Assembly (NCBI RefSeq): GCF_001423845.1 | Contig: NZ_LMPM01000001.1 | Coordinates: 304,001 to 368,000 of the forward strand | Direction: 5' to 3' | Origin: Sphingomonas sp. Leaf357 | GTDB taxonomy: Bacteria > Pseudomonadota > Alphaproteobacteria > Sphingomonadales > Sphingomonadaceae | DNA: 64,000 nucleotides | Shown here: piece after piece, positions 2,039-20,485 of the stretch | How positions within the stretch are numbered: position 1 is the stretch's first letter | How the letters are laid out: each line of letters starts with the position of its first letter | The notes under the pieces: model-generated | Told to the model about the DNA's origin: nothing | Database searches by the model: none | What the model saw: only the letters and a program-made list of their open reading frames with translations | Translations under genes and position numbers: made by a program

Positions 2039-2050
2039 ACTGGTGATCCG

Positions 2051-2887: not shown

Positions 2888-2913
2888 CGCGACATTCACG
2901 TTCCATGGGGAAA

Positions 2914-2933
2914 TCGCTGGATGCCCCGTGAGG
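2914..2933. repeat. attL, 20-bp core repeat
   Basis: TCGCTGGATGCCCCGTGAGG, identical to 20408-20427. The neighbouring bases differ on both sides (A versus T before it, G versus A after it), so the perfect match is exactly 20 bp. The copy reproduces the last 16 bases of tRNA-Gln including CCA, plus four downstream bases. The rest of the tRNA is not present here, so this is the element-distal junction. Confidence 0.9.
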
Positions 2934-3415
2934 GCTGGCTCTAAGAGGCAAATTCAACAAGTTAGCGTGTCAAACCGGGCCGAACCGGCGCAACAGTTAC
3001 CGAGGGGGCCGCATCATGAAGTGGCTAACCGTTCTGAGGCTTCCAAGGCCAAACATCGGGGGGTCACCACCGAGTCGGTAACGGCAAGAACGGGCCGTCC
3101 TGACAATTTAAATCGGCAGAACTCCAGTTGGCCTGTTGGTCCCGAAAAATTGCGCGGTCGCGGCTGGTATTCACCGTGCCGCACCGTCCAGCTCATCGAA
3201 CGGGGGAAGCATGAGCGCGGCCCTCGCTTTGTAATCTGGACGTTCTTCGCGAACCGTCGAATCGACTTGCGCTTCCCGCCGATCGGGTGCGCCTCCCGGA
3301 GGCGCGCAGAGTTTTTGGCGCTTCATCGCCTTGCCGATGTTGGAGGTGAACCCGTCACGCTCCCGCGCCGTGGCGGTATCGACCTGGCTCGATCAGGCGA
3401 TGTGATCGGGCTGGA
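2934..3415. other. non-coding left end of element with a terminator-like hairpin
   Basis: About 480 bases between attL and the primase gene with no convincing protein gene. Open frames here lack ribosome sites and have atypical composition. A perfect hairpin, GCGCCTCC/GGAGGCGC at 3289-3305, is followed by a five-T run at 3312-3316, which resembles a rho-independent terminator on the plus strand about 100 bases before the primase. It may end a short leader or regulatory RNA transcribed into the primase operon, comparable in position to the leader-encoded immunity RNA of satellite P4. That comparison is inference. Confidence 0.4.
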
Positions 3416-6400
3416 TTGTTGCCGGTGAGCATTTGCGACGATTTGCTTGCCGCCGCACTGAGCTACGCCGAACGCGGGTGGCCGGTTTTTCCGTGTGATC
3501 CTCGTACAAAGCGGCCGCTATTGCCTCGCGACAGGGACGCGGATGGCACGCCCATAAAAAACTCCGGCGGCGTCAAAAAGGCTTCAACGGACGAGGCGCA
3601 AATTCGGCAGTGGTGGCGGAAGTGGCCGCGCGCAATGATCGGTATAGCGGTCGGCGCGGCTGGCTTGCTGGTGATCGACTTTGATCCACGAACCGATGAT
3701 ATTGTTGACGACGCGACCGGCGAAATCATTGGACAGGAGGTCTGGACGCTCGATCGCTTGAAGGCAGCGCTAGCCGCAGTCACCGACGGCGATCTGCCTG
3801 ATACGCTGATTGGCATCACCCGTTCGGGTGGCGAACATCACTGGTTCAAAATGCCGGCCGGCACGCCGATCGGCAACCCCGGCAGCCTACCGAGACACAT
3901 CGATGTCCGCGGCGATGGCGGATACGTCATCGTTTCCCCCAGCCACTTCGACGGCGACGCTGACAACGCGCCGGGTGATTATCGATGGCTATCGGACGCC
4001 GACGCCTCCCGAATCGCCGAACTGCCGATGGCCGTGGTGGAATTGCTCCGCGCGAAGCCCGGCTCTACTCGCGCCGATCCTTCGCAGGCTAGCATGACCA
4101 CGACATCGTTCGCGGTCGATGTCGATGAAGCGCATCGCCGGTACGCGCTCAACGCGCTCGATCGCGAGATATCAGAGCTGGCGGCAACCCCTAAGGGTGG
4201 CGGCCGACATAACGGCCGCAACCAAGGGGCTTACCATGCGGCGTTCAATCTGGGGCAGTTCGTAGGCGCTGGCGCGCTCTCCGAAACGATCGTCCGGATG
4301 TCGCTGCTGGAGGTAGTAAGGGGTTTCGATCCATCTGCCTATCAGTCCCACGCCACTGCGATCGATAACGGCATCGAAAACGGGCGAGCCAAGCCGCGCG
4401 ACCTATCCTTGATTGGCGCGTCTGCGCGCCGATCGACACACCAGCTCACGCGCCCGCATGATGCGGATCGCCCCTTCGCGCCGATCGATAGCCACGATAG
4501 CCACCCGGCCGCGCAAGCGGGGCGCGCGGTTTCCCACCGTAAACGCGGCGATGATCAATCCTCCCGAGATGGGAAGGTAAGCGACGCTGCTGCGCTGAGT
4601 GTGGCGGATCGGACGCGGGTCATCAACATCACCGAATCGTGGTTCGTGCGACAGCTCGCCGGGTTCGACGGCACGATCGAGGCCGCAACGGCGCTTGCCT
4701 TTGCCATCGGCCGGCGTAGCGCGGCAGGGCTGATGGATCTCTCGGCCGCATCTGGAAAGCTGGCGGCTGCGGCGACAGATATTCCCGGCGCCGACGACGA
4801 AATTCAGCGTTCCATTACCGCCGGCGGGCAACGCGGGTTCGATATCACACCCATTCTCGTGACGCTGGCATGTTCGAGATACCCACTTACCGATTTCGGC
4901 ATCGCAGAGCGGTTCCGCGAACGGTTCGGTGCCAATTACCGTTTCACGACTGCGAAGGGCTGGCTGGGCTGGGACGGCCGTCGATGGAAGGTTCTCGATC
5001 AAGAGGAGAAAACGCCGCCAGCTGAAGTGATCGCAGCTGTCTTCGAGACCATTCGCATGATCCAGGCGGAGGCTAAGGCGATCGCCGGCACGGGCGTGCG
5101 TCACGATCTCGATACCGAACGCAAGGTGATATCTCCCGATGTGAAGGATGCGCACGCGCTCGACCGGTGGAGCCACAAGGGCAAATCGTTTGAGTTGTTC
5201 TCTGAGACAGTGCGCAATTTCGGCCGGCGGTCGGAAACGACGGGCAAACCCGAGAGCGTGGCGAAGCTGGCGCGCCGCTGGCTGACGGTGCCGATCGAGG
5301 ATTTCGATCGCGATCCGCTGGCGATCGGCGTCCTGAACGGCACACTTCGGTTCGATCATGGGCGTCACGCGGACGGCACCGGTTGGGCTAGCGTGGAACT
5401 CTCGGACCATCGTCGCGAGGATTACAATACGAAGCTTGCGCCGATCGTCTACGACCCGGCCGCCACCGCCCCGCTGTACGACTCGATGCTGGAATGGGCG
5501 CAGCCGGACCCGGTCATGCGTAGATACCTCCACCAAGTGGGCGGCTATGGTGCGACGGGCCTAACCGGCGAACACAAGCTCTGGTACAATTACGGGCGCG
5601 GCCGAAACGGTAAATCAACCACGATTGATGCGTGGTGTCACGCGCTGGGCGACTATGCGGCTACAACGCTGATCGAGACGTTCCTCGACCAGGGCATCAA
5701 GAAGCGTGGCGATCAAGCGTCACCGGATCTCGCCCGGCTTGGCGGTGTGCGCATGCTGCGCGCGTCCGAACCAGATCGGGATGCCAAGCTCAACGCAGCC
5801 CTCATCAAGTTCGTCACCGGCGGCGAGCCGATCCCGACGCGCGCCCTACATCGCGGTTTCTTCGAACTATTACCGCGCTTCAAGCTGATCATGAGCGGCA
5901 ACAGCAAACCGGGCATCCCGGATACCGATGACGGTATCTGGAGCCGGATGAAGCTCATCTCATGGCTGAAGAACATCGACCTCGAATTCCACGATGATGG
6001 CACGCCCAAAAAGGATCCGCAGCTCCTCGACAAGATCAAGAGCCGCGAAGCCTCAGGCGTCTTCATGCGCTTGGTTGATGGCCTCCTCGACTATCTCAAG
6101 CATGGGTTGATCGAGCCGGCAACGGTGACAGCGGACACTCAGGCGTACCGCGACGCCAGCGACCCGCTCGCCCGTTTCCTGCGTGAGTGCGTGGTTCCCG
6201 ACGACCAGAGCAGCGTCCAGTCCTCGATCCTTCATGGCGTCTTCGTCGCATGGGCCAAGGCGGCAGGCGAGCGTGAGTGGTCCAACAAGGGCTTCTCCGG
6301 TGCGATGACAGACAAGGGATACCGAAAGCACAAGTCGAACGGGATGCACTGGCTGGACCTTCGGCTGGTCCGTGCCGCTTCCGACTTCGTGGATGATGAG

Positions 6401-6496
6401 GGGCGCGTGCGCGTCCTCGGAGAGGCCCTGCCCACCGCCGCGCCGGCTCCGTCCCCCAGACCCCCGCCGGATTGGGATGATGATGGTCCGCTCTAA
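3416..6496 (+). CDS. bifunctional primase-polymerase/D5-P4-type helicase (replication protein)
   Basis: A 1026-residue replication protein. The N-terminal third is a prim-pol (archaeo-eukaryotic primase-like) domain, with AERGWPVFPCDPRTKRP, the acidic motif GLLVIDFDPR near residue 80, and GEHHWFKMP. After a basic, charged linker (about 340-400), the C-terminal half is a phage/plasmid primase P4-family superfamily-3 helicase. It has the Walker A loop GRGRNGKST at 727-735 and an SF3-style C-terminus. Such proteins initiate and prime replication of P4-like satellites and some plasmids. Start codons TTG 3416 or GTG 3425 are both possible; there is no strong ribosome site. A 21-bp repeat lies inside the linker coding region and a second copy covers the stop codon. 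Confidence 0.9.
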   Translation: MLPVSICDDLLAAALSYAERGWPVFPCDPRTKRPLLPRDRDADGTPIKNSGGVKKASTDEAQIRQWWRKWPRAMIGIAVGAAGLLVIDFDPRTDDIVDDATGEIIGQEVWTLDRLKAALAAVTDGDLPDTLIGITRSGGEHHWFKMPAGTPIGNPGSLPRHIDVRGDGGYVIVSPSHFDGDADNAPGDYRWLSDADASRIAELPMAVVELLRAKPGSTRADPSQASMTTTSFAVDVDEAHRRYALNALDREISELAATPKGGGRHNGRNQGAYHAAFNLGQFVGAGALSETIVRMSLLEVVRGFDPSAYQSHATAIDNGIENGRAKPRDLSLIGASARRSTHQLTRPHDADRPFAPIDSHDSHPAAQAGRAVSHRKRGDDQSSRDGKVSDAAALSVADRTRVINITESWFVRQLAGFDGTIEAATALAFAIGRRSAAGLMDLSAASGKLAAAATDIPGADDEIQRSITAGGQRGFDITPILVTLACSRYPLTDFGIAERFRERFGANYRFTTAKGWLGWDGRRWKVLDQEEKTPPAEVIAAVFETIRMIQAEAKAIAGTGVRHDLDTERKVISPDVKDAHALDRWSHKGKSFELFSETVRNFGRRSETTGKPESVAKLARRWLTVPIEDFDRDPLAIGVLNGTLRFDHGRHADGTGWASVELSDHRREDYNTKLAPIVYDPAATAPLYDSMLEWAQPDPVMRRYLHQVGGYGATGLTGEHKLWYNYGRGRNGKSTTIDAWCHALGDYAATTLIETFLDQGIKKRGDQASPDLARLGGVRMLRASEPDRDAKLNAALIKFVTGGEPIPTRALHRGFFELLPRFKLIMSGNSKPGIPDTDDGIWSRMKLISWLKNIDLEFHDDGTPKKDPQLLDKIKSREASGVFMRLVDGLLDYLKHGLIEPATVTADTQAYRDASDPLARFLRECVVPDDQSSVQSSILHGVFVAWAKAAGEREWSNKGFSGAMTDKGYRKHKSNGMHWLDLRLVRAASDFVDDEGRVRVLGEALPTAAPAPSPRPPPDWDDDGPL
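4557..4577. repeat. copy 1 of 21-bp AATCCTCCCG...TGGGAAGG repeat
   Basis: This site within the primase gene linker region reads AATCCTCCCG, three bases, then TGGGAAGG. It matches 6495-6515 at 19 of 21 positions. The two halves are near-complementary (CCTCCC/GGGAAGG), so it could bind a dimeric protein. Location inside the replication gene suggests an origin or control-site role, not proven. Confidence 0.6.
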
Positions 6497-6764
6497 TCCT
6501 CCCGTGCTGGGAAGGAAGTGGGAAGGTTTTGGGAAGCAGAAACGGGAGTTTTCTGCGGGTTTGGGAGGGTTGGAACGGTTTTGGCGATGTTCCGTACATC
6601 ATGCGCATGCAGGCAGGCGCATGCACAGGACAACATATTCAATAACCCTTCCAACCCTCCCAAACCTCCCATGGAAAGAAACTAAGTTATTAGGAACTAA
6701 GGATATGCCTAAAAACCGGGTCGGGAGGATCGAGGCTTTTGGTGGGAAGGTTGCGGGAGGATCG
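6495..6764. other. candidate replication origin: GGGARG repeats and an 18-bp inverted repeat
   Basis: The region directly after the primase-helicase gene is packed with related purine motifs. Copy 2 of the 21-bp repeat is at 6495-6515, and TGGGAAGG occurs again at 6519-6526. CGGGAGGATCG is repeated at 6722-6732 and 6754-6764, with TGGGAAGG between them at 6743-6750. A perfect 18-bp inverted repeat, GGTTTGGGAGGGTTGGAA and its complement, sits at 6558-6575 and 6649-6666 with a 73-base spacer that includes an AT-richer stretch. P4-type primase-helicases bind iterons at their origin, and clustered repeats beside the replication gene fit that. No binding has been shown. Confidence 0.5.
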
Positions 6765-7159
6765 TTACCGGTGGCTCGGTCTCGACTTCAACCCGCACCG
6801 TCGAGCCGGAACGCAGATGCTGGCGCGGTCGCCAGCGCGTGCGTCGGCGGGCGCGACCGCCAGCCCCCCGGGGGGGGTCAAATCTGGGACGAGGGTCCAG
6901 ACCTAGACCACCTGTACCCGCACGCAGGGACTTTTTTCTCGGTACGCGGATTTTCGGGGGTCGCCTCGGCCAAATCGGCTGCCGTAGCGGCCTCAGAATG
7001 CCTCTCTGGACGTGAGATTGCTTCGGAAGGTCTGACGGCCATCCCGCGCATCACCGGGCATCGTGGGGCTGCCAACCGGCTAGGTGAGATGCGGCCGACC
7101 TTTGGCGGCTCGCGGCCTCAATTGAAGCGAATAAATTCTCTGACCGCTTCGGTGCGCCG
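6765..7159. other. non-coding gap between candidate origin and the first small packaging-type gene
   Basis: About 395 bases without a supportable gene. A run of eight G residues lies near 6870-6880. The open frames through the stretch have poor codon composition and no ribosome sites. The promoter for the 7160 operon is probably here, but no clear -35/-10 pair was found. Confidence 0.4.
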
Positions 7160-7453
7160 ATGAACCTCGGGACGCTCGATGACCTGGGCCGGATCGGCGA
7201 CATGCCGAGCGTTCCATCGATCCGCCGGCTGATCGCGGCGCGGAAGGACTTTCCCGTGATCCAGCGCGGGCAGTACGGCAAGCCGTACATTCTCGATCTC
7301 GATGCCGCTGCCGCATTCATTCGAGAACATTGGCGCGACGGCCGGAACGAACGCCGGCTGCGCCGCCTCGCGGAAAAGCAAGCGGCTGTTATACCGTCGA
7401 AGCAACATGTTTTGCCGGGTCTGTTCGATCTTTCGGACGTGCCCGCAACGTGA
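7160..7453 (+). CDS. small DNA-binding-like protein (possible terminase small subunit/Nu1-like)
   Basis: A 97-residue basic protein beginning MNLGTLDDLGRIGDMPSVPS. The first 60 residues (IRRLIAARKDFPVIQRGQYGKPYILD) look like a winged-helix recognition segment of the kind found in lambda Nu1-type small terminases and excisionase-like proteins. A basic arginine-rich helix (about 65-80) follows. The position, at the head of the morphogenesis operon, is where a small terminase normally sits, but no large subunit follows. The stop overlaps the next ATG by one base. The packaging role is inference; a regulatory DNA-binding role is equally possible. Confidence 0.55.
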   Translation: MNLGTLDDLGRIGDMPSVPSIRRLIAARKDFPVIQRGQYGKPYILDLDAAAAFIREHWRDGRNERRLRRLAEKQAAVIPSKQHVLPGLFDLSDVPAT

Positions 7454-7911
7454 TGGATGCCGGCCGCCTCGACGTGCCTGGCGTGCGCCCAACGGTCGGC
7501 GATCTACGCCGCGCTCGCGACGTGCTTGCGTCTGCCGGCGAGGCGTCTGTCGCGACTGTGGCCGAGGCGATCGGCGCGATCCTCAACGGGCTGGACCCTG
7601 TTACCGCTCTGGGGCTGAAAGCCACGGCCGGACAGCGATCGGCTTTGACTGTGGATCGGATCGCCAGCCGTAATCAGCTCTTGCGCAGCATGGCGCGCCG
7701 CCACTTCGCCGAGATGTGCCCCAGCGCTCAAGCGCGTGAGATCGCCGCTGTTGCCAATACATACTGGCGGCGCGCCGCGCGAGCAGACGCGACGCTTGAG
7801 GAAATGCCAAGCAGCTATGTCGGGATGCCGCGCGAGTTCCTGTTTCATATCGCCCGCCTGCCGACGACCATCCCCAGCGAGCGGACCATCCGCCTAGTGT
7901 TGGCATCATGA
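7453..7911 (+). CDS. hypothetical protein of the element
   Basis: A 152-residue protein starting MDAGRLDVPGVRPTVGDLRR; its ATG overlaps the previous stop (TGATG), implying translational coupling. It is alanine- and arginine-rich and predicted helical, with segments such as TVAEAIGAILNGLDPV and RRHFAEMCPSAQAREIA. No signal peptide or membrane helix is visible. I do not recognise a family. Its place between the Nu1-like gene and the capsid genes suggests a packaging, scaffold or head-completion role, which is only an inference. Confidence 0.6.
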   Translation: MDAGRLDVPGVRPTVGDLRRARDVLASAGEASVATVAEAIGAILNGLDPVTALGLKATAGQRSALTVDRIASRNQLLRSMARRHFAEMCPSAQAREIAAVANTYWRRAARADATLEEMPSSYVGMPREFLFHIARLPTTIPSERTIRLVLAS

Positions 7912-7920
7912 AACGGAAAT

Positions 7921-7953
7921 CCGCTGGCAGCGGAAGGACGCTTTTCGCTGCCA
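7921..7953. promoter_or_regulatory. 33-base stem-loop element, copy 1
   Basis: TGGCAGCG at 7925-7932 pairs with CGCTGCCA at 7946-7953 around a 13-base loop. The same 33-base unit recurs at 10100-10132 with 28 of 33 identical positions, and the TTTTCGCTGCCA half is fully conserved. Copy 1 begins nine bases after the stop of the 7453 gene and ends 58 bases before the ATG at 8012. It may be a protein-binding, RNA-processing or translational control site. Confidence 0.55.
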
Positions 7954-8011
7954 CCATGATCCCCGAAACCACGGCCACTGAATGCGCCGCAACGCACCGA
8001 AAGAGGAAACC

Positions 8012-8698
8012 ATGACGCTCTCCAAAGCATCGCAAGCCGAAAACACCGTCCGCGCCGACGATTGGGAGGATGCTGACGAACCGTGGACCCTCCGCGCCCT
8101 GAAACGGGGTGAGCGCGAAACTTTGCTACGTTGGTCAAAGTACCGCTTACCTAACGTCACGCCGCTCGCAAGTTTCGCGGATTATGCCGCAGCGGCGGAA
8201 AAGCGTGCCGACATTGCTCGTGCGCGGAGCGTGAGTGAGACCGAACTCAGAAAAGCCGTTACCGAAATTGCGCGCGGTATCGCGGCGCGACAGGAAGATC
8301 AGACGGCTAAACAGGCGCAGGCCATTTTAGACGGGCGCGCCAATGAGGCATTCGAAGGATTCGAAGAGCTGAAGAGTCAGCAGGCGCGCCTATCACAACA
8401 GTTGAAGGTCTATGGCGTCGCACTGCGAACACAGGAGGGAGTCGTTGCCGAGATCAGATCGGAGCGCTCGATAGACGCGGCCGATGCTATGCGCCCTGCG
8501 CACCAAGCGGCCGTGGCCGATATCGCTGTCGCTGTCGCGCAACTGCGGGAGGCTTTCGACCGAGAAGAGGCAGCGCGAACGCTGGTGACAAAAGCTGGGT
8601 ACGATGCCCGCCTCCCGAGTTTTTCCCCCGGCACGGCCATGCGGCAGGGTGGCCAGCTCGATGAAATTGAACGCCGCGCCCGCGAGTATACCCGGTGA
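8012..8698 (+). CDS. coiled-coil-rich hypothetical protein (possible scaffold)
   Basis: A 228-residue protein beginning MTLSKASQAENTVRADDWED. The start is chosen because GAGGAAACC precedes ATG 8012; an upstream in-frame ATG at 7982 lacks such a site. It is hydrophilic, with no signal or membrane segment. Residues about 50-185 are alanine-, glutamate- and arginine-rich helices with heptad character (AEKRADIARARSVSETELRK, FEELKSQQARLSQQLK), predicting a coiled coil. Its position before two head proteases and the capsid gene fits a scaffold or head-assembly protein, but the family is not recognised. The stop overlaps the next GTG by four bases. Confidence 0.65.
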   Translation: MTLSKASQAENTVRADDWEDADEPWTLRALKRGERETLLRWSKYRLPNVTPLASFADYAAAAEKRADIARARSVSETELRKAVTEIARGIAARQEDQTAKQAQAILDGRANEAFEGFEELKSQQARLSQQLKVYGVALRTQEGVVAEIRSERSIDAADAMRPAHQAAVADIAVAVAQLREAFDREEAARTLVTKAGYDARLPSFSPGTAMRQGGQLDEIERRAREYTR

Positions 8699-9219
8699 GC
8701 TGGCGGGCCGGCATCCATGGCTACGTGGCCCGCTGGGGTGTCGTCACTGGACCGATCGGCCGGCCGAATGCGCCGCATCTTTCGCGGCCTGCACGCTTCG
8801 AGCGAAACTGTTTCACCTACGACGCCGCCAGCATCGAAATCTGGTTTATGCATCGCAGGGCACAGTCGTACGGAGCCGGTGAGTCTCTCGATCTGCGCAT
8901 CTGGCCTGATGCTTACGGGCTTGCGTTCGCCTTCAGGCCGCCCGCCAGCGCTCACAGTCTCGTGTGTGGAGTCGCGGACGGACGGTACGCACAATGCTCC
9001 GCTGGGTTCGCGATCGAGGCGAATACGGTCGTGAGCCAAGGCGGGGTAGTTTTCGATAGTATTTCGAGGGCAGCGCTGAGCGAGATCAGCATCTGTCCGC
9101 GCGGAGCATGTCCTGGCACCGCGTGCTGGCACGCAGCCAACGTGCCGCACGGGTTGCCGGCGCACGCGGCGGCGGTGTTGCCCCATTGGCTGGGCGGCCG
9201 TGTCGGGTTGGCGGCGTGA
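8695..9219 (+). CDS. HK97-family (S78) prohead protease
   Basis: A 174-residue protein with the herpes/HK97 assembly-protease pattern. It has an N-terminal GIHGYVARWGVVTGP strand pair, a candidate catalytic His53 in FMHRRAQ, Ser102 in QCSAGF, and the conserved strand ALSEISICPRGACPGT at 127-142. These proteases cleave scaffold and capsid N-terminal regions inside the prohead and destroy themselves. The start is GTG 8695 in a GTGA overlap with the preceding stop. Its end overlaps the S49 protease GTG in the same way. The sequence is divergent, so catalytic assignments come from motif position only. Confidence 0.75.
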   Translation: MSWRAGIHGYVARWGVVTGPIGRPNAPHLSRPARFERNCFTYDAASIEIWFMHRRAQSYGAGESLDLRIWPDAYGLAFAFRPPASAHSLVCGVADGRYAQCSAGFAIEANTVVSQGGVVFDSISRAALSEISICPRGACPGTACWHAANVPHGLPAHAAAVLPHWLGGRVGLAA

Positions 9220-10094
9220 TCGCGGATTTCACCGCGCAGACCCAATGGGCCATGCACCCTATGTTCCTCGACGCGATGCTGAAGCGCGCGGCGATTGAGA
9301 CGCTCTTGCCCGAGACGTTGATGCGGCTCGCGGCCGGCTTTTCGGGAGGGAAGGATGCGGCGAAGCCAGCTCAGCCGGTACGGGACGGCGCATTGTTCGT
9401 CCTCCCGGTGGTCGGAGTGCTTGCACCGCAAGGGATGTATGCCGGCGGCACGTCCTATGAGACGATCGCGAACGGCGTGCGCGAGGCGGCTGCCGATAGC
9501 CGGATCGGCACGATCATACTTCATGTGCGCAGCCCCGGAGGCACAGTATGGGGCTGTGCCGAGGCGGCCGACGCCATATTTGCCGCGCGAGCGATCAAGC
9601 CGGTAATCGCGGTCGCCAGCCCCTTTAGCTTTTCGGCGGCATACTGGCTCTCAACTCAGGCATCGAAATTCTACGTAACCAAATCGGGAGAGGTTGGATC
9701 GGTTGGTGTTCGATCGGGCCACACGGATATGTCCGGTTTCGAGCGCCTGTTGGGAATGACAACAACGCTGATCGGCTCCCATCCGGACAAGATCGCGGCG
9801 CATCCCCATGCGCCGTTGTCGGACGAGGATCGCAGCGAGATCCAGTTCGGTGTCGATGAATCTAATCGCAGCTTCATGCGCGCGATTGCGCGCGGCCGGG
9901 GGATGAAGCTTGGCGACGTCGCCATGGTGCATGGCACTGGCAGAACTTTCTCCGCGCGACGTGCGCTAAGTCGGGGCGCGATCGACGGCATCGCCACGCT
10001 GCGCGACGTGATCGGGCACCACGTGTCGCCGCAAGGTCGGCTCGGACTTATGCGGAGGCAGGCCGCTATCGCGGAAATGGCCGCCTCGATCTGA
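9216..10094 (+). CDS. S49-family peptidase (SppA/lambda C-like capsid protease)
   Basis: A 292-residue ClpP-fold protease of the S49 family. Core motifs are GALFVLPVVGVL (58-69), ILHVRSPGGTVWG (101-113), the nucleophile region FSFSAAYWLS with Ser140, GEVGSVGVRSGHTDMSG (158-174) and PLSDED (200-205). Lys192 is a candidate general base. In phage genomes this type processes portal or capsid precursors, as lambda C does. The GTG at 9216 overlaps the prior stop; ATG 9252 is the alternative start. It follows an S78 prohead protease, so this element has two maturation-type proteases in tandem. A stem-loop and the capsid gene follow. Confidence 0.85.
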   Translation: MIADFTAQTQWAMHPMFLDAMLKRAAIETLLPETLMRLAAGFSGGKDAAKPAQPVRDGALFVLPVVGVLAPQGMYAGGTSYETIANGVREAAADSRIGTIILHVRSPGGTVWGCAEAADAIFAARAIKPVIAVASPFSFSAAYWLSTQASKFYVTKSGEVGSVGVRSGHTDMSGFERLLGMTTTLIGSHPDKIAAHPHAPLSDEDRSEIQFGVDESNRSFMRAIARGRGMKLGDVAMVHGTGRTFSARRALSRGAIDGIATLRDVIGHHVSPQGRLGLMRRQAAIAEMAASI

Positions 10095-10099
10095 CGGGG

Positions 10100-10132
10100 C
10101 CGCTGGCAACGGAACGTTACTTTTCGCTGCCA
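10100..10132. promoter_or_regulatory. 33-base stem-loop element, copy 2
   Basis: Second copy of the unit at 7921-7953 (28 of 33 bases identical). The left arm is TGGCAACG and the right arm CGCTGCCA, so one arm base is changed (an A opposite C) while the right half is unchanged. It lies just after the S49 protease stop and 40 bases before the capsid ATG, the same arrangement as copy 1. Two copies each preceding a structural gene argue for a regulatory role. Confidence 0.55.
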
Positions 10133-10172
10133 GTCGAACCGGCCACATCCATCTTCGAAGATGGAGAAAACG

Positions 10173-11279: not shown

Positions 11280-11323
11280 CCTCGGCCGTGCCGAGATCCA
11301 TGCATCTTCAGGAGTAAAAGACA

Positions 11324-14300: not shown

Positions 14301-15445
14301 TCCAGAAAGTGGGCGAGGGCGCGTTCGAAACACTGGTCCGCGTGTCGTCTACGGTTGAAGCCGTGACTTCCGCGTTGGATCAGCTCGCCAGCGCCGGGCC
14401 GCAATTGAGTATCGCGGCCAAGGTCGGGCTGGCGGACCAATTCGAATCCATCTCGGATTTCACCAGCGCCGTCGGTGCCTATTTCGAGGGGTATTACACG
14501 CAGGCCGAGCAGGCGGCGGCAAAGACCGCCCAATTCGGTAAGGTGTTCGATAGCCTCGGCCTGGCGATGCCCACGACCCTCGCCGGCTTCCGGGCGCTGG
14601 TGGAGGCGCAGAACCTCGCTACGGCGGCGGGACAGGCCACCTATGCCACCCTCCTACAACTCGCCCCGGCCTTCGCCGACCTGCAATCTTCACTTGAAGG
14701 CGCGAAGAGCGCGGCCGACATCGCCAGCGAGCGAACGGACCTGCAACGCCAGTTGCTCGAATTGCAGGGCAACACGGCCGAACTGCGAGCGCTGGAACTG
14801 GCGAAGCTCGATCCAAGCAATCGCGCGCTGCAAGAGCAGATCAACGCCATAAAGGATGCGCAGGACGCCGCGAAGGCGGCGGACGATCTGCGGAAGGCGT
14901 GGCAGACGGTCGGAGATACGATCATGGCCGAGGTGAACCGTATCCGAGGGATCACCGGCACCGCGCAGGGCGGCGGGTTCGCGCAGCTTCAGGGTCAGTT
15001 CAACGCGGCCACCACAGCAGCGCGCGGCGGCGATCAGGATGCGGCCAAGCTGCTTCCCGGCTTGTCGCAATCGTTGCTGACGGCGGCGCAAGCGGCGGCC
15101 ACGAGCCGACAGGAACTTGCTCGCGTCCAAGCGCAGACGGCCGCCAGCTTGGAGGCCACATACGGTGTCGTGAGTGCGCTCACCATGGCTAGCACGTCAG
15201 CGACGGCCACGACGACGGCGGATGCGGCGGCAGCGGCCGGTGGCGCGACGACAGGCACCGCTGATCGGACGGCCAGCCTTGAGGCGGCGGTCGAACGGCT
15301 GACGGATGAAGTGAAGCAGCTGCGATCGGAGAACATGGCGACCCAGAGCGCGATCGTCGGCAACACCGGGAAAATTGCGCGGAAGCTCGACGATGTAACG
15401 ATGGAGAGCGGCGGCACGGCCATCTCGACGACGCTCGCGGCATGA
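11324..15445 (+). CDS. tail length tape-measure-like protein
   Basis: A 1373-residue protein with the features of prophage tape-measure proteins. It has long alanine-rich alpha-helical and coiled-coil stretches (for instance residues 60-150, 380-560 and 1120-1200). Hydrophobic segments lie near 205-230 (GPWGIALTGATLVAAAL) and about 740-765 (NLVAMAATGAALVAAGISV). The C-terminal region is rich in Gln, Ala and Thr. Tape measures set tail length and help DNA entry. The start GTG 11324 follows CAGGAG; the stop overlaps the next ATG by four bases. No tail tube or tail chaperone genes accompany it, which is unusual. A role as a head-inserted or tail-remodelling protein is possible. Confidence 0.75.
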   Translation: MQDGEGGAELSVGFTIDADGAFGQIQTLDDVIGTAAANAVREWQRVQAVMGGGLKLASSMAEMTAYGNASTRAALDTAKAQAAAERAGDGMVRQLQRQIDTFGKTSSEIRNMNAELKATAADSSGLTVLAADIRKLNGELNRLEAGGGRAEGSVRKTGGAMAALAPQAQDAFTQVSMGTNVLSVLAIQGGQAAGQMVYLEGAAGSFGRFMMGPWGIALTGATLVAAALTKGMFDGADAAKTKEKAAKDLADAVDKLASSTAAATTTEWESQRATLASAAAYRQQALDARALTVEKIGLARADLAAALAASAKPDPSRGQDGGIDFDLVQAGQIQNQIKTLDASLAVQQKQLERTTVSFREAQAVYIGANIAGRLDKETGLTREYQKQLSGLNVEFRRTGDVDAYAAARLKLEKTYAGERDALKESEKAQRSAAGAHHGLTDAQREAASEAKKAQGVYDASVKTATEFADAQRKTADTLGLSAEQLRAYADAAAIAKAPTDALKQAIRDAAAAREAAYSAKAATDFQANVMKPLQDELALYGLVGPARAAAALELEKETFITKNGADAWREYHAAKANLIGKDAAAAAEASQIAQMRDEMDKLVDAAHRAGDALANAFGRVGGAIGGALGVLAEYSKAQKAIGADTKLSAEQKRVAMTKLQIEATGDLIGQTKNLFKEHSTAYKAMAAAEQVYRVAQFAMSVQAMAQNVAETLGFVANSTAKQVAAGTEGIANQSKLTFPYNLVAMAATGAALVAAGISVFGGSGGGAASAPVSNKGTGTVLGDGSAQSESIKNAIDALGKVDTLMLSSSRQMAAYLKSIDSQIGGVAAVLVRSGDVGAGTVQASKPSGILGSLFGSRIDVNASGLYAAAQSLEQVLSGGLNTQAYSDITKVSKFLGIVTSKKTSTTFGAADPAVGEQFTLILRSFNDAIKAAAGPLGESTAAIQAKLNGFVVNIGKVDLQGLTGAEIQSKLTAVFSAAADQMANTAFPGMQQFQKVGEGAFETLVRVSSTVEAVTSALDQLASAGPQLSIAAKVGLADQFESISDFTSAVGAYFEGYYTQAEQAAAKTAQFGKVFDSLGLAMPTTLAGFRALVEAQNLATAAGQATYATLLQLAPAFADLQSSLEGAKSAADIASERTDLQRQLLELQGNTAELRALELAKLDPSNRALQEQINAIKDAQDAAKAADDLRKAWQTVGDTIMAEVNRIRGITGTAQGGGFAQLQGQFNAATTAARGGDQDAAKLLPGLSQSLLTAAQAAATSRQELARVQAQTAASLEATYGVVSALTMASTSATATTTADAAAAAGGATTGTADRTASLEAAVERLTDEVKQLRSENMATQSAIVGNTGKIARKLDDVTMESGGTAISTTLAA

Positions 15446-15939
15446 CGACGATCAAGGGCCGCGATGCCGTCCGCCGCTATTTGCTTGAGCAGACGCCGAA
15501 GCGGTTGAAGACGCTAATGCGCGGCGCGGCGAAAGCGGGTGCAACAGTAATCGCCGAAGAGGCGAAACAGCGCTCGATATCGCACGTTGTCGATGAAGCG
15601 ATCACTATCAAGGTTCCTCGATCGGACGGCATCACGGCTACCGCTAAAGTGACCATCGAAGGCCGTTGGGCGAATTCGCTCGCGCTCTGGCTGGAATACG
15701 GCACCTCACCGCATTTTATCATGGTCGATGAAAGCCAGCGCGCCGGTCGAAGTGTTAAGGGGATCAATAAGACGGGCGGCCTGGTGATTGGCGGCAAGTT
15801 CGTCGGCGACACGGTGCACCATCCGGGCGCGCGCCCTCACCCGTTCTTGCGGCCGGCGCTGGACTTGAAAGAGGCCGAAGCCATCGCGGCCGCTCAAGCG
15901 TACATTGATGGTAAGCGCGGTGGCAGCGCCGACGATTGA
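15442..15939 (+). CDS. HK97 gp10-like (head-tail joining/minor tail) protein
   Basis: A 165-residue basic protein. The segment VHHPGARPHPFLRPALDL (about 128-145) is the hallmark C-terminal motif of the HK97 gp10 family. The N-terminal RYLLEQTPKRLKTLMRGAAK helix and a central LWLEYGTSPHFI agree with it. Members act at the neck or head-tail connection. The ATG overlaps the tape-measure stop (ATGA), so the two are translated together. In most phages gp10 precedes the tail genes; here it follows the tape measure and is the last plus-strand structural gene. Confidence 0.8.
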   Translation: MTTIKGRDAVRRYLLEQTPKRLKTLMRGAAKAGATVIAEEAKQRSISHVVDEAITIKVPRSDGITATAKVTIEGRWANSLALWLEYGTSPHFIMVDESQRAGRSVKGINKTGGLVIGGKFVGDTVHHPGARPHPFLRPALDLKEAEAIAAAQAYIDGKRGGSADD

Positions 15940-15955
15940 TGCTCCGGCCAAGCCA

Positions 15956-16609
15956 TCAGGCGGTGGGCTTGCGGACAGAAGCAATACGCACATGCACGCT
16001 ACCCTCACCGTGCGGTTTGCAGCCCAATGTAGAAAACAGTTCCTTGCCGTCGCGGCGCAACGGGGTCGCTGACAGCATATCGCGCTGTATCGCTGCGCAT
16101 CGCGCGATCTGGGCAAGATCGGGTTGAGGAAAACCGACCCCGACAGCCAGCGCGCCAAGACCAAACAGGATAGCCGAAGCCCATCCCGCTAGCGGTCCCG
16201 CTCGCCCCAGAGCGGCGACTTTGTCCGGCATCGTGTCGGCGAATTCGGCGTGCTCTTCGTTATAGTCGCCTGTCACCGACACGACTGTCGATCGCGCCAG
16301 AGCCTCGCCTATGAAGACTCCGCCGAGCCGATTAGCCCTTTGATTGAACACTCCGACCAGAAGCGCGCAGAACGCGCCGGCTACAAAAAACAGTCCCGCC
16401 GTCTTGGGATATTCGAGACGGTCGATAGCGTTGAATATCGCAAGCGCTCCGGCGCCATTTACAGCGAGCAGCGACGCCGAAAGCCATCGCCCGATGGCCG
16501 AATGCTCTTCTAGGAGCGCCTTCTGGGTTTCCATCAACGCATCGCGCGTCATCTGTGCGAGCGCGCGCATCGTGGCTGCGGTAAGATCCTCGGGGACAGT
16601 GTCCGACAT
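15956..16609 (-). CDS. membrane protein with conserved C-terminal Cys motif (paralogous partner 1)
   Basis: A 217-residue protein of unknown function. A hydrophilic N-terminus (1-40) is followed by hydrophobic segments at about 44-62, 70-88 and 137-160. A 57-residue soluble tail contains RCAAIQRDMLSA and LGCKPHGEGSVH. This tail (residues 170-206) is 27/37 identical to residues 99-135 of the upstream neighbour, including two cysteines 26 residues apart. The two genes are three bases apart on the minus strand, opposite to the structural operon, and likely form an operon. A role in superinfection exclusion or host-envelope alteration is speculation. Confidence 0.7.
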   Translation of the reverse strand: MSDTVPEDLTAATMRALAQMTRDALMETQKALLEEHSAIGRWLSASLLAVNGAGALAIFNAIDRLEYPKTAGLFFVAGAFCALLVGVFNQRANRLGGVFIGEALARSTVVSVTGDYNEEHAEFADTMPDKVAALGRAGPLAGWASAILFGLGALAVGVGFPQPDLAQIARCAAIQRDMLSATPLRRDGKELFSTLGCKPHGEGSVHVRIASVRKPTA

Positions 16610-16612
16610 GAC

Positions 16613-17038
16613 TTACGGCCTCGCTGGCGCGGCGTGAACGCTGCCTTCACCTTGGGGACGGCATCCAAGCGCTTGAAACAAATCCGGGCCGTCGTTTCGG
16701 TGAGGACGTGCAGACAGCATGTCCCTCTGAATCGCCAAGCATCGTCTATCGTTCGCCCAGCTTGCATGATCGGCTTTGGAAACCTGCCAGCTAAGTTTCA
16801 CGGCGGCTATAGTCAGAAATATTAAAGAGCTTCCCAGAATAAGGTTTACGAGCCAGCGTCGATTTGGTGCCATCGCTCCATTAACAGCAACGATCGCTAA
16901 CCCAAAAAAAATGCCAGCCCCGGATAGCTCCGTTGGATCTGCAAAGCGCGCCTCCCACTGTCCCATTGAGGCGAAAATCACAGCTGCAATTCCGAAAGCC
17001 CAAAAGGTATCGCGTATAAATTCGTGAGGCTTCTCCAT
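16613..17038 (-). CDS. small membrane protein with conserved C-terminal Cys motif (paralogous partner 2)
   Basis: A 141-residue protein starting MEKPHEFIRDTFWAFGIAAV, with hydrophobic segments at about 13-27, 40-56 and 64-82. Its C-terminal tail has RCLAIQRDMLSA and LGCRPQGEGSVH. The membrane part does not resemble the downstream gene product, but the 37-residue tail does. So the tail is a module attached to two different membrane anchors. The segment is visibly more AT-rich than its surroundings. No known family is recognised. It lies between the gp10-like gene and the RHH regulator, in the accessory part of the element. Confidence 0.7.
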   Translation of the reverse strand: MEKPHEFIRDTFWAFGIAAVIFASMGQWEARFADPTELSGAGIFFGLAIVAVNGAMAPNRRWLVNLILGSSLIFLTIAAVKLSWQVSKADHASWANDRRCLAIQRDMLSARPHRNDGPDLFQALGCRPQGEGSVHAAPARP

Positions 17039-17116
17039 GCTTCATCCCCGGTAAGTGGCGGTGTCACACACGACGAGCCGTTCACGCTGCTGACGAGTCG
17101 TCTACGGCGAGGCTTG

Positions 17117-17338
17117 TTACAAGCCTCTGACGTTATCGGCGAAACGCTCGCTGAGAATTGCGCGGATGGCTTCAGGTCGCGAGGGCGTAGGATTTTGAGT
17201 AGCTATCCAGGCATCGAGCGCCGCTAGTTGAGCCGGTTGTAGCCGCACCATGACAGGGAGAGCATCGGTACGCGGACGCCCTCGCTTGGATTTTCCAATA
17301 TCATCTATTGCGCTGTTCACGAATAAACGATATTGCAA
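17117..17338 (-). CDS. ribbon-helix-helix (CopG-like) regulator
   Basis: A 73-residue basic protein. The core KRGRPRTDALPVMVRLQPAQ is a basic arm followed by a beta strand, then LAALDAWIATQ and SRPEAIRAILSERF helices, the ribbon-helix-helix layout of CopG/Arc-type repressors. It is divergent from the two-gene operon at 17403. The 64-base gap carries an inverted repeat, so it may control that promoter and its own. The start is uncertain: ATG 17338 has no clear ribosome site and GTG 17320 is possible. Confidence 0.75.
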   Translation of the reverse strand: MQYRLFVNSAIDDIGKSKRGRPRTDALPVMVRLQPAQLAALDAWIATQNPTPSRPEAIRAILSERFADNVRGL

Positions 17339-17345
17339 AAGGCGA

Positions 17346-17375
17346 ACCGAAGCAAGGAGGCAACCTCGCTTCGGT
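17346..17375 (+). promoter_or_regulatory. inverted repeat in leader of the Tat-like protein pair
   Basis: ACCGAAGC (17346-17353) pairs with GCTTCGGT (17368-17375). An inner GAGG/CCTC pair around CAA extends the hairpin and hides a ribosome-site-like AAGGAGG. It lies between the divergent RHH gene and the gene at 17403, which has its own GGAGG at 17391-17395. It could be an operator for the RHH protein or an RNA control hairpin. Confidence 0.45.
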
Positions 17376-17402
17376 CCTAACTCATCGCACGGAGGTAACC
17401 CG

Positions 17403-17789
17403 ATGCCACAAGCTACCTGCGCTCATAGCGCTCCCGCGTCCTGTACGTCACCGGGAAAAATCCCGAATAATTCCGCCCTGTTGCCGACACGACGCGGCTT
17501 GATAGCCGGGGGTGCCTTGGCGTCCGCCGCGATCGTCCTGCGCCGCACGTCGTGGCATGATCATTTCGATCCGGAAACATGGCTCCTCCGTTGGCACCGT
17601 CTCGGCAACGCCGTCGCTTGGGACGTGAGCGGGCAACCGATGCTCTGCATGAATATGTTGGGCGACGAGGATGCCAGTACAAAGTTGCGCGGCGAACTCG
17701 ATTGGGGTGGCAACAGAAACCTGCTTCGGCGCTGGATGGCCGCGCATCGCCCCGTGAGCGCTTTCGGCCAGATCGGAGCGCGGGCATGA
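17403..17789 (+). CDS. hypothetical protein with Tat-like leader (pair member 1)
   Basis: A 128-residue protein; ATG 17403 is preceded by ACGGAGGTAACCCG, a strong ribosome site, so the longer upstream frame is not used. Residues 31-48 (TRRGLIAGGALASAAIV) look like a twin-arginine or Sec leader, with a long hydrophilic n-region before it. The mature part is short with tryptophans (TWLLRWHRLGNAVAW). Its stop overlaps the next ATG (ATGA). The neighbour has a nearly identical leader core, so both are probably exported together. No family is recognised. Confidence 0.6.
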   Translation: MPQATCAHSAPASCTSPGKIPNNSALLPTRRGLIAGGALASAAIVLRRTSWHDHFDPETWLLRWHRLGNAVAWDVSGQPMLCMNMLGDEDASTKLRGELDWGGNRNLLRRWMAAHRPVSAFGQIGARA

Positions 17790-18406
17790 GCGTGATGATG
17801 CCGACGAGGCGAATGATGATCGGTGCCGTCGCCAGCGCAGCGATTGTGAGCGGGCTTCCGGTTGCTGCCGAAACCTCGGGGGTGCCATCTTCCCGCTGGG
17901 ACGATCTACTGAGCCGCTGGCAAGAGGCAGTACGGGAAGCGGAAGAATATCGGGCGGGCGCTTACCAGCCCTCCTGGGACAGGATCGAAGAGCAATGTGG
18001 CCCCTGTCCGGGCACTTCGTTCTCATCGACCGCGCGGAACGGGCATACAGTGACAATCAGGATGAAGCACGCGGACTTCGACGAGTGGCGCGAGAGTTTC
18101 GTGTGGGGCCGAGAAGCCGCACCGGTTTGCGATACCTTTGATCGATGGATCGCCTCGCGAACCGCCGCTGAAGCTCGGCCGGCACACAGAGCTATTTCCG
18201 ATCGCATGCACTTCCTTTGGGAGGCCGTTGATCGAGCAGAAGAGGCGCTCATGTCTTTCTCCGCGCCCCATGCCTCGGCGCTGGCCGTCAAAGTAGGGAT
18301 CGCGCTGGAAGGCGGCATGACCGACGAGGATATTCGTAGCGATCATCGGGCCGCATTGTTGGCTGACGTCGCCGCTATCGCAGGGCAATCGAATGTGAGT
18401 CCCTGA
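17786..18406 (+). CDS. hypothetical exported protein with Tat-like leader (pair member 2)
   Basis: A 206-residue protein starting MSVMMPTRRMMIGAVASAAI, with a probable cleavage near PVAAE (residues 25-29). The leader shares TRRxxIxGxxASAAIV with the upstream partner. The mature domain begins WDDLLSRWQEAVREAEEYR, is rich in Trp, Arg and acidic residues, and contains a CGPC motif (EEQCGPCPGTSF, about residue 70) resembling a thioredoxin-type CxxC. It is otherwise helical. The CxxC may be redox active or bind metal. It overlaps the previous stop by four bases. Function is unknown. Confidence 0.6.
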   Translation: MSVMMPTRRMMIGAVASAAIVSGLPVAAETSGVPSSRWDDLLSRWQEAVREAEEYRAGAYQPSWDRIEEQCGPCPGTSFSSTARNGHTVTIRMKHADFDEWRESFVWGREAAPVCDTFDRWIASRTAAEARPAHRAISDRMHFLWEAVDRAEEALMSFSAPHASALAVKVGIALEGGMTDEDIRSDHRAALLADVAAIAGQSNVSP

Positions 18407-18455
18407 GGCAATACAGCGCTTCGCCGGATAAATTTACGACTTCTCCAATCGCTCA

Positions 18456-18484
18456 TTGACCCCACGATAAAACGGGCGCATTAG
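18456..18484 (+). promoter_or_regulatory. possible promoter of the MerR-like gene
   Basis: TTGACC at 18456-18461 and CATTAG at 18479-18484 are separated by 17 bases. If used, transcription would start at or just before ATG 18488. That would favour translation from ATG 18518, or a leaderless transcript. The -10 match is weak. Confidence 0.3.
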
Positions 18485-18487
18485 GTC

Positions 18488-19117
18488 ATGACGCTTGCGC
18501 ATAAGGACCATAGACTCATGTGGCAGATACCTGAAGATGTCCCGCTTTTTACGATGGCGACCGTCTCTCGCGCCGCTGACGTAGCGCCGCCGACCATCCG
18601 CGCTTGGTTTCAGCGAAAGCATGTTCGACTCAAGGATGGTGACAGCAAGGCACACATCAACGGGCTGCCGAACAAGTTCACGTTGCGGAGCGTCCTGATG
18701 CTCGCCGTTACGAGCGAGCTGGTCCGGCTGGGAAGCCTGCCAGCCGAAGCGTTCAAATGTGCGGAGCATTGGATGGGCAACGGAACGGTCGATGGACAGG
18801 TTGGTGCGGCAGCGCGTCGTGACGCCGGCGGTCTCTTTGCAGATCCATTCATGACCTATCTTGTCGTTGGAGTGGACACAGCGGTCGAGGCTTCAAGGCC
18901 ATGCCGGATTGAGGGGATCAATCCTCACGACCCTGCTGCCCACTCCGCGTTTTTCAACGCGCTCTTTTTCCGGGGTCGATCGAGCGCGAAGATCGTGTTG
19001 CTGAACATGGTCGATCGTCGTGTTCGGCAAGTCTGCCAGGAGGCCGTATTGGGGGAAGGCGCACCGCCCGAACCGGATTGGGAAGCGGTCGCAGCCGAAC
19101 TTATCGCTCCTGAGTGA
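18488..19117 (+). CDS. MerR-like helix-turn-helix regulatory protein
   Basis: A 209-residue protein. Residues about 21-65 (LFTMATVSRAADVAPPTIRA ... GLPNKFTLRSVLMLAVTSEL) match the winged-helix layout of MerR or AlpA-type DNA-binding domains. The C-terminal 130 residues match nothing I recognise, and may sense a ligand or mediate oligomers. ATG 18488 or ATG 18518 (MWQIPEDVPLF) may be the start. It precedes the 64-aa gene and the integrase, so it likely acts as control or excision factor for the element. The regulatory role is inferred from the domain. Confidence 0.6.
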   Translation: MTLAHKDHRLMWQIPEDVPLFTMATVSRAADVAPPTIRAWFQRKHVRLKDGDSKAHINGLPNKFTLRSVLMLAVTSELVRLGSLPAEAFKCAEHWMGNGTVDGQVGAAARRDAGGLFADPFMTYLVVGVDTAVEASRPCRIEGINPHDPAAHSAFFNALFFRGRSSAKIVLLNMVDRRVRQVCQEAVLGEGAPPEPDWEAVAAELIAPE

Positions 19118-19127
19118 TGGTGCCGAA

Positions 19128-19322
19128 ATGACAAAGAGAACGATGTCCCCCAGCAAAGCCGATGTCGCCCGCGCAGTGAGCGGCGCGATCGAGGGTGGTG
19201 TGCAGATCGGCCAAGTCAGCGTCCTTCGGGACGGAAGCATAGTGATCGTTCCGAAGGGGATGGTCGAACCTGCGATACTCGATGACGAGATCGACGCCAA
19301 ACTAGCGGCGTTTGCGCGCTAA
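19128..19322 (+). CDS. small hypothetical protein upstream of integrase
   Basis: A 64-residue protein beginning MTKRTMSPSKADVARAVSGA. It is short and polar, with a helical N-terminus and a beta pattern VSVLRDGSIVIVPKG; no family is recognised. Its last base is shared with the integrase ATG (TAATG), which argues for real, coupled translation. A recombination directionality factor or regulator is possible by position, but the sequence does not show it. Confidence 0.6.
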   Translation: MTKRTMSPSKADVARAVSGAIEGGVQIGQVSVLRDGSIVIVPKGMVEPAILDDEIDAKLAAFAR

Positions 19323-20401
19323 TGACGAAAAAGCGCCTCCTCTATGTGACTGGCTTCACCGATCGGCACGGCAAGCGCAGATGGCGTTTCCGTCGCAAAG
19401 GCTATCCGCCCTACTCATTCAAGTCGCCTCACGGGACGAAGGAATTCGAGCGCGAATACGCGGCCTGCCTGAACGCCGAGCAAGCCCCCGTCATGTTGCG
19501 GGCGTCTATTCCGGGTAGCATCAATGACGTTATCGCCCGCTATTACAGCGACAATTCGTTTCTCGATCTGCGCCCTTCTACGCAAGGCGTGTACCGAGGG
19601 GTTTTAGAGCGCTTTCGGGACGCTTTCGGCGACGACTCGATCAAGGTGTTCGACGCCGAGCGCATCGCCCGTCTGATGACCGCCATGCGGCATAAACCGC
19701 ATGCAGCTGCCCGGCTTCGGAAATTGCTTGCGCAGCTGCTACGGATCGCGCGCCGGGCGAAGCTGGTCCCGGTTGGCTTCGATCCGATCAAGGATACCAA
19801 GGCACCAAAGGCCGAGAGCGGCGGATATCACAGCTGGACCGAAGATGAGCTGACAGCTTTCGAGAACCACTTTGCCGTTGGCACCAAGCCTCGCTTGGCC
19901 TTCGATCTCCTTCTCTACGGCGCGCAGCGAAGTGGTGACGTTCGGCTCATGACGCCGGCGATGATCGCTGGCGGACGGATTAGGCTTGAGCAGAACAAGA
20001 CCACTAACTCGGTCGATATACCGATCGTCGCACCGCTTCAGGCATCATTAGACAAAGGCCCGGTTGGCCAATTCACGCTGATCGAGACGAAAGATGGCGA
20101 GCCATTCACCGAGAAGGGCTTCTACGGGATGATGAAAAAAGCCTGCGTCAAGGCCGGCATTCCCCATTGCTCCCCGCACGGCCTGCGCAAGGCGGCTGCG
20201 AGGCGGTGCAAAGAGGCGGGTTGCACCAACGAGGAAGGAATGACGATCACCGGGCACAAGAGCGAAAAAGAGTATCTTTATTACGCCGGATCGAACGCGC
20301 GGCCGGAAGTCGCAGACGCCGCCATGGGCAAAGTAATGGCTAACCGATCCCTGAGGTTAGCCAGCGCATCTGCGCAACATACTGAAAAGAGGGCACAATG
20401 A
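19322..20401 (+). CDS. tyrosine-family site-specific integrase
   Basis: A 359-residue integrase. The N-terminal part contains an arm-type and SAM-like region (about 60-160). The catalytic C-terminal domain has Arg203 in LLYGAQRSGDV, HGLRK at 286-290 (His286, Arg289), TGHKSEKEYLYYAG with His312, and the probable nucleophile Tyr321. It carries out recombination between the tRNA-Gln attB and the element attP. It ends seven bases before the attR core, the usual arrangement for tRNA-targeting elements. It is in the same orientation as the structural genes. Confidence 0.95.
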   Translation: MTKKRLLYVTGFTDRHGKRRWRFRRKGYPPYSFKSPHGTKEFEREYAACLNAEQAPVMLRASIPGSINDVIARYYSDNSFLDLRPSTQGVYRGVLERFRDAFGDDSIKVFDAERIARLMTAMRHKPHAAARLRKLLAQLLRIARRAKLVPVGFDPIKDTKAPKAESGGYHSWTEDELTAFENHFAVGTKPRLAFDLLLYGAQRSGDVRLMTPAMIAGGRIRLEQNKTTNSVDIPIVAPLQASLDKGPVGQFTLIETKDGEPFTEKGFYGMMKKACVKAGIPHCSPHGLRKAAARRCKEAGCTNEEGMTITGHKSEKEYLYYAGSNARPEVADAAMGKVMANRSLRLASASAQHTEKRAQ

Positions 20402-20407
20402 CCCCAT

Positions 20408-20427
20408 TCGCTGGATGCCCCGTGAGG
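20408..20427. repeat. attR, 20-bp core repeat within tRNA-Gln 3' end
   Basis: An identical copy of 2914-2933. Sixteen of the 20 bases (20412-20427) belong to the tRNA 3' end (T-arm end, acceptor, discriminator and CCA). The remaining four are just downstream of the tRNA. Integration therefore leaves the tRNA whole. Confidence 0.9.
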
Positions 20428-20485
20428 ATTCGAACCTCAATAGGCGGTATCAGAAACCGCAGTCTTACCATTAGACGACGGGGCA
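20412..20485 (-). tRNA. tRNA-Gln (anticodon CTG)
   Basis: A 74-nt tRNA including an encoded CCA. Acceptor strands are TGCCCCG and CGGGGCA; the anticodon stem GCGGT/ACCGC encloses loop TTCTGAT, giving anticodon CTG; the T-arm contains GTTCGAATC. U1-A72 at the acceptor end is typical of bacterial tRNA-Gln. It is the integration target of the element to its left, whose integrase lies within ten bases. Confidence 0.97.

Follow-up and report, generated by a model that had tools for sequence, protein, structure and literature searches.

A candidate cos-hijacking phage satellite with phage-derived capsid and tail genes at a tRNA-Gln gene of Sphingomonas sp. Leaf357

What kind of mobile element occupies the tRNA-Gln gene in a 64,000-nucleotide stretch of Sphingomonas sp. 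Leaf357 (contig NZ_LMPM01000001.1, positions 304,001 to 368,000; hereafter the window)? A preliminary description of this DNA proposed that the 17.5-kb element is a capsid-forming satellite with its own capsid genes and no packaging or tail set. From its sequence and that of its relatives, we consider it likely that the element is a phage satellite that hijacks the cos packaging of cos-type HK97-like temperate phages and remodels both the head and the tail of such a helper. It would represent a new Sphingomonas satellite lineage with a matched phage family and a common cos-like site; a literature search found no satellite study in Sphingomonas or Sphingomonadaceae.

Borders and virion genes of the element

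The element is flanked by a perfect 20-bp direct repeat, TCGCTGGATGCCCCGTGAGG, whose left copy (attL) lies at 2914–2933 and whose right copy (attR, 20408–20427) overlaps the 3′ end of the integration target, a tRNA-Gln(CTG) gene at 20412–20485 on the minus strand. A tyrosine integrase of 359 aa (19322–20401; features are on the plus strand unless stated otherwise) adjoins attR. Family search recovered a primase-helicase of the PrimPol/D5 type (Prim-Pol PF09250 and D5_N; 1026 aa; 3416–6496), an S78-type prohead protease (8695–9219), an S49 head maturation protease (9108–10094) and an HK97-type major capsid protein (MCP; 10161–11279), all of which had been recognised in the preliminary description. 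As is typical of satellites, the element is smaller than a phage and has its own integrase and replication gene together with an incomplete virion set.

The element was said to lack the remaining virion genes, and this holds in part. There are 100 open reading frames (ORFs) of at least 60 aa; 19 of them and 79 further ORFs were scanned against PHROGs, and the remaining two lie mostly outside attL. None of the 79 further ORFs had a PHROG match at 1e-3. With TerS, TerL, portal, adaptor, Hc1 and tail-tube proteins of the related prophage L036 as queries, tblastn gave chance-level matches alone (lowest E 0.09). Neither the PHROG scan of 98 of the 100 ORFs nor tblastn, which covered terminase, portal and tail tube, revealed a gene for large terminase, portal, tail tube or lysis in the element; the S49 protease has a side match to a portal profile (E 0.0034), and PHROGs gave no other portal signal. 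The claim that tail genes are missing was mistaken: a tape-measure protein (TMP, 1373 aa; 11324–15445; phrog_7740, 1.3e-38) and a Neck1 or tail-completion (gp10-like) protein (15442–15939; phrog_5, 1e-10) had been overlooked, as had a cos-like site at 6870–6937.

A backbone shared with other satellites

The order primase–cos–g97–g193–g238–S78–S49 is found intact at further sites or hosts, namely at a tRNA-Cys gene in the genus genome G518 and within a phage genome in IMG/VR, in elements of 16.7–17.5 kb. Its conserved satellite genes are g97 (7160–7453), which occupies the terS position of prophages and for which DNA binding is a guess made by eye; g193 (7330–7911), which overlaps g97; and g238 (7982–8698), which encodes a long-helix coiled-coil protein. 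In G518, g97, g193, g238, S78 and S49 are colinear with those of the window at 68, 60, 55, 59 and 59% identity, and the element is bounded by 55-bp repeats 17,196 bp apart. The same five genes are colinear at 71, 68, 63, 77 and 71% identity in IMG/VR contig 3300045942_000167, where a satellite of about 16.7 kb (86–16774) interrupts the phage genome; its flanks, 1–85 and 16775–22881, join without interruption in contig L149, which comes from the same metagenome (100% and 96%, respectively, with a 10-bp overlap). This satellite (L121/L059) is inserted a short way upstream of the cos of its host phage, in a frame that by eye is HNH-like. Because the backbone recurs both at tRNA-Cys and inside a phage genome, the element is not simply a decayed prophage.

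A fourth, decayed copy is found in G615, with an intact integrase that is 78% identical to that of the window and lies beside the same tRNA-Gln. On the G615 contigs C19 and C21, a frameshifted S78 gene accompanies the integrase and a broken g193 is on a separate contig. S78 occurs in 3 of 295 genus genomes and g193 in the same three, while a draw of 298 family genomes yielded the element itself and four weak partial matches with stops. A search of 5.8 billion proteins gave 32 members for the S78 family and at least 22 for the g238 family (best 7999 candidates scored), the window's own included in each; hosts named for other members are Sphingomonas sp. CFBP9019, CV7422 and Leaf10. Across the 32 rows of S78 sequences, E130 is invariant and H53 and S102 are nearly so; we take these three to be the catalytic residues. 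In a tree of 43 rows, the S49 proteases of the three intact satellites form one clade (support 99/99) within phage S49s.

The sisters differ from the window element in the slot 3′ of S49. The IMG/VR sister carries there an AAA ATPase of the candidate defence family PDC-S06 and a TIR protein, G518 carries PDC-S32/AbiJ-NTD4 and an O-acetyltransferase, and the window element carries MCP–TMP–Neck1. The three satellites stay at 16.7–17.5 kb though their cargo differs.

Relatives of the structural genes in prophages

Relatives of the MCP were found at 19 loci in species genomes and 61 in IMG/VR, one of which, L054, is the element itself (100%). The nearest kin (at least 60% identity) with a named host are mostly in Sphingomonas genomes; the longer IMG/VR contigs among them measure 33–45 kb, all but one 36–45 kb, and may be incomplete. 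The prophages share the order primase–cos–TerS–TerL–portal–S49–MCP–adaptor–Hc1–Neck1–tail tube–TMP. MCP, S49, TMP, Neck1 and the primase of the element are 29–81% identical to relatives in prophage loci, and for MCP, TMP and Neck1 the nearest kin are prophage genes. The suspicion that close relatives might be full prophages from which genes were lost is thus correct for these three genes and not for the element, whose backbone kin are satellites. Apart from L054, the MCP-bearing loci, compared as pieces of up to 21 kb, many of them partial, gave no tblastn match (1e-4) to S78, g97, g193 or g238.

Gene order bears on the same question. Neck1 precedes TMP in the prophages and follows it in the element, with an ATGA overlap, so deletion alone cannot produce the order of the element. 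The full-prophage order reduced by deletions would also leave the additional g97–g193–g238–S78 block unexplained. In L053 (Sphingomonas hankookensis CN3), an N-terminal fragment of the primase abuts a C-terminal fragment of the MCP at 9383–10396; this is probably a deleted prophage that illustrates what simple decay looks like.

A cos-like site common to satellites and phages

The gap that follows the primase gave short blastn matches to prophages between their primase and terS. The common core consists of a G-run, CCTAGACC and then a T-run, and in the window the site at 6870–6937 reads GGGGGGGGTCAAA..CCTAGACC..TTTTTT, as before terS of the related prophages. By sequence, the element therefore appears to share a packaging signal with phages that keep it upstream of terS. 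The pattern matches once in the window and in none of 100 shuffles.

Searching IMG/VR with the CCTAGACCGC form of the pattern, that of the prophages, gave 29 stretches. A TerS and/or TerL match accompanies 26 of them, two being weak (TerL 21% and 23%); the other three are L147, L154 and the IMG/VR satellite. By eye, L154 also encodes a 597-aa ATPase-like protein. For the genus survey the pattern permitted either base, that is, the CCTAGACCGC or the CCTAGACCAC form, and it was found in 13 of 295 genomes, with none for the reversed-pattern control. These hold 14 distinct sites: TerS–TerL follows 11 of them, two belong to the S78 satellites and the last is in G659. G518 harbours both a satellite and a cos–TerS–TerL prophage (TerL 67%).

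The G659 locus (L211, G659:C257) has a primase and the same cos-like site, with no TerL or S78 block. Downstream of its cos lie a 1308-aa protein, a KAP-like NTPase and type I restriction-like genes, all named by eye, and element borders were not found at this locus. It is perhaps another cos-using defence island.

Captured MCP, TMP and Neck1

The window MCP is nested among phage MCPs in a tree of 63 rows. Its most evident change is at the N terminus. The coiled N-terminal delta domain was matched in all 49 MCP loci of at least 60% identity (34 distinct N-termini) and is present in 73 of 76 MCP loci overall; L038 and its copy L071 have an open frame of about 52 aa in the delta region. It was found neither in the window MCP nor elsewhere in the element. 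The likely start of the MCP is at 10173, with GGAG at 10163–10166, and an in-frame stop lies about 22 codons upstream of 10161. When residues 1–45 were compared with 5.8 billion proteins, by a method that depends on 5-residue words in common, the sole match was the query itself.

The TMP is 14–20% shorter than seven closed phage TMP ORFs (1373 aa vs 1603–1711 aa, phage lengths being counted from the first start codon), and the main gap follows residue 134. The TMP and MCP ORFs are intact over 4119 and 1116 nt, and Shine-Dalgarno-like sequences are present. Third positions took 85 of the 151 changes on the window branch of the MCP (p=6e-9), which implies that this branch evolved under constraint. 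They likewise account for 164 of 364 changes in TMP (p=2e-6) and 23 of 45 in Neck1 (p=0.01); since the donor of these two genes is distant, much of their change may predate capture.

The MCP follows a hairpin specific to the satellites. This hairpin stands before g238 in all three intact satellites (7921–7953 in the window) and in none of the phage loci compared. The sisters have one copy, and the window element has a second at 10100–10132, immediately 5′ of the MCP. Of 290 genus genomes, two, G000 and G518, contain a stricter form of the pattern, one that misses the first window copy. As RNA, both copies in the window fold more favourably than their shuffles (z −3.2 and −2.9).

Comparison with known satellites

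P4-like satellites and Gram-negative phage-inducible chromosomal islands (PICIs) typically combine an integrase at a tRNA gene, a primase-helicase and defence cargo. The window element resembles them in its tRNA integrase, primase-helicase and cos, and its sisters do so in their defence cargo. Sid-, Psu-, Rpp- and AlpA-like genes were not recognised in general family scans, which included no dedicated search for them. We know of no P4-like or PICI family with the g97–g193–g238–S78–S49 block. In P4-like and PICI satellites, DNA with cos is packaged by the helper terminase, as an excerpt of PMC10690885 describes.

The cos-type Staphylococcus aureus pathogenicity islands (SaPIs) offer a closer parallel. 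According to the portion of PMC8569155 that treats it, Ccm of SaPIbov5 is a capsid homologue with a shorter delta region that joins the helper capsid protein to yield small shells and forms no capsids alone; the mature Ccm starts at residue 88 and the helper capsid protein at 129, and Ccm is thought to be phage-derived. Within what that portion covers, the window element is similar in having a helper-type cos, no terminase found and a homologue of the helper capsid protein that has the HK97 fold and a reduced delta domain. It differs in that delta is wholly missing, two proteases, TMP and Neck1 are added, and the replicase is of the PrimPol/D5 type. The likeness drawn here is in the way of working.

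Tail remodelling has a precedent in the phage-inducible chromosomal island-like elements (PLEs) of Vibrio cholerae, which build chimeric tails with a satellite-encoded TMP (PMC12987554, in excerpt). The window element likewise encodes a TMP. PLEs also encode a tail assembly chaperone, some with a baseplate hub, and neither was found here; none of the scanned ORFs has a PHROG match to such a chaperone, although short chaperones can escape profiles. Unlike that of PLE, the TMP here is a shortened homologue of the TMPs of related prophages and is paired with an MCP.

Like a capsid-forming PICI (cf-PICI), the element is integrated, of PICI size and provided with an MCP and a head maturation protease. 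cf-PICIs encode portal, connectors, TerS, TerL and HNH, as stated in the available extract of PMC10690885, and some carry putative tmp genes (PMC12987554, legend of Extended Data Fig. 10). Here portal, TerS and TerL were not found, with g97 a candidate for a TerS-like role, and the element is not a cf-PICI as defined. The proposal of a capsid-forming satellite therefore stands for the satellite, by its backbone at several sites, its common cos-like site and the defence-type cargo of its sisters. It does not stand for capsid formation in the published sense: with portal and terminase not found and the MCP lacking delta, the MCP probably joins or redirects the helper capsid and does not build one by itself. 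As far as these partial sources allow comparison, the window element unites a Ccm-like MCP and a PLE-like TMP, and the terminase and portal by which cf-PICIs are defined were not found in it.

Proposed mechanism and alternative explanations

The cos-like site and the altered MCP and TMP, with no packaging motor found, indicate that the element probably travels only by hijacking the particles of the related phage. As its gene content suggests, helper induction or infection would lead to excision and replication of the element, whose cos might then be recognised by the helper terminase and its DNA packaged. MCP, TMP and Neck1 would have been acquired from phages of the helper kind. Lacking delta, the MCP likely assembles together with the helper capsid protein or diverts it towards small heads, a process in which g238, S78 and S49 perhaps take part; with the helper tail-tube protein, the shorter TMP likely specifies chimeric, shorter tails; and Neck1 would couple the altered head and tail. 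The helper would supply portal, terminase, tail tube, fibres and lysis, and its yield should fall.

Small heads fit with the sizes of the satellites. The element is about 0.44 of a 40-kb helper (0.39–0.48 for helpers of 44.6–36.4 kb), and a T=4 head would have nearly the same share, 0.43, of the volume of a T=7 head, where we infer the T numbers. The matched size ratio makes redirection of capsid size and tail length directly testable, and nature already provides a related phage genome interrupted by a satellite, as well as a capsid protein with a deleted delta domain. We advance more tentatively, as a possibility slightly short of even, the wider idea that edited helper genes reprogramme both virion ends (a delta-less MCP, a coiled-coil factor and a second protease for small heads, a short TMP and Neck1 for short tails, and packaging via the common cos), that they were captured in a defence slot, and that cargo for structural piracy and cargo for anti-phage defence can replace each other.

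Several observations weigh against a helper-remodelling satellite. The MCP–TMP–Neck1 block is known from one element. The MCP branch is long (0.24), and its ratio of first- and second- to third-position changes is 66:85, vs 13:43 on a phage branch (Fisher p=0.0096), an excess that relaxed selection would also yield; part of the change may also predate capture. More distant phages have still shorter TMPs (L110, 1324 aa; L037, 1045 aa). The window site carries CCTAGACCAC and misses the exact IMG/VR pattern CCTAGACCGC, and the hairpin of the IMG/VR satellite folds no better than shuffles (z +0.72). The predicted structure of g238 is a confident long helix (mean pLDDT 84.6, pTM 0.62), and a fold search with it returned a generic coiled coil alone, with no informative match; a scaffold or size factor is a guess from its position. 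The head of the G518 cos prophage is of another kind: neither S49 nor MCP found a match in the 14.5 kb compared. A search of the host genome of the window, run with no positive control, detected no TerL relative of this phage type and hence gave no sign of a resident helper of that type.

The element could be a true satellite whose MCP–TMP–Neck1 serves outside its own particle as anti-phage cargo that poisons the assembly of a competitor or the helper. The same slot holds defence-type genes in both sisters, and a satellite inhibitor of tail assembly, Tai, is described in the excerpt of PMC11364771. We think this unlikely, although it deserves attention: the closest precedents, Ccm (PMC8569155) and the PLE TMP (PMC12987554), serve in satellite particles in the parts of those sources that describe them, and S49 and S78 beside the MCP fit processing. 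Alternatively, a satellite backbone may have recombined with a prophage and kept MCP–TMP–Neck1 as non-functional remnants, which would account for the singleton block, the long MCP branch, the partial head and tail set and a Neck1 out of phage order. Such remnants would hardly be expected to show the intact ORFs with their Shine-Dalgarno-like sequences and ATGA overlap, the third-position bias of MCP and TMP, a hairpin copy before the MCP, and a delta domain missing in the manner of Ccm, and we rate this explanation as quite improbable.

A plain reduced prophage, with terminase, portal and tail genes deleted, would explain the prophage kin of MCP, S49, TMP, Neck1 and the primase, and the adjoining fragments in L053 are what such a deletion would leave. 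It is very improbable in view of the S78, g97, g193 and g238 genes, unmatched in MCP-bearing loci and colinear in the tRNA-Cys and in-phage elements, of Neck1 after TMP and of an S49 in the satellite clade. One can also imagine a small phage or cf-PICI that sustains itself and whose terminase and portal escaped detection, given that no function is known for about 87% of PHROGs or for several of the genes here; since, apart from the side match of S49 to a portal profile, neither PHROGs nor tblastn with L036 proteins matched TerL, TerS or portal, we give it almost no credence. The helper-remodelling satellite is the reading that we retain.

Remaining genes of the element

Two genes on the minus strand follow Neck1, encoding proteins of 217 aa (15956–16609) and 141 aa (16613–17038) that are putative membrane proteins by eye, with no family above the cut-off. 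Next to them is a 73-aa protein (17117–17338, minus strand), kept in the sister elements and, by eye, a possible repressor. A 275-aa ORF at 17579–18406 has no family match. Before the integrase lie g209 (18488–19117), a putative regulator by eye with 61–67% identity to its G518 and G615 copies, and g100 (19020–19322), 45% identical to the G615 copy. The C-terminal sequences of the two neighbouring putative membrane proteins are alike.

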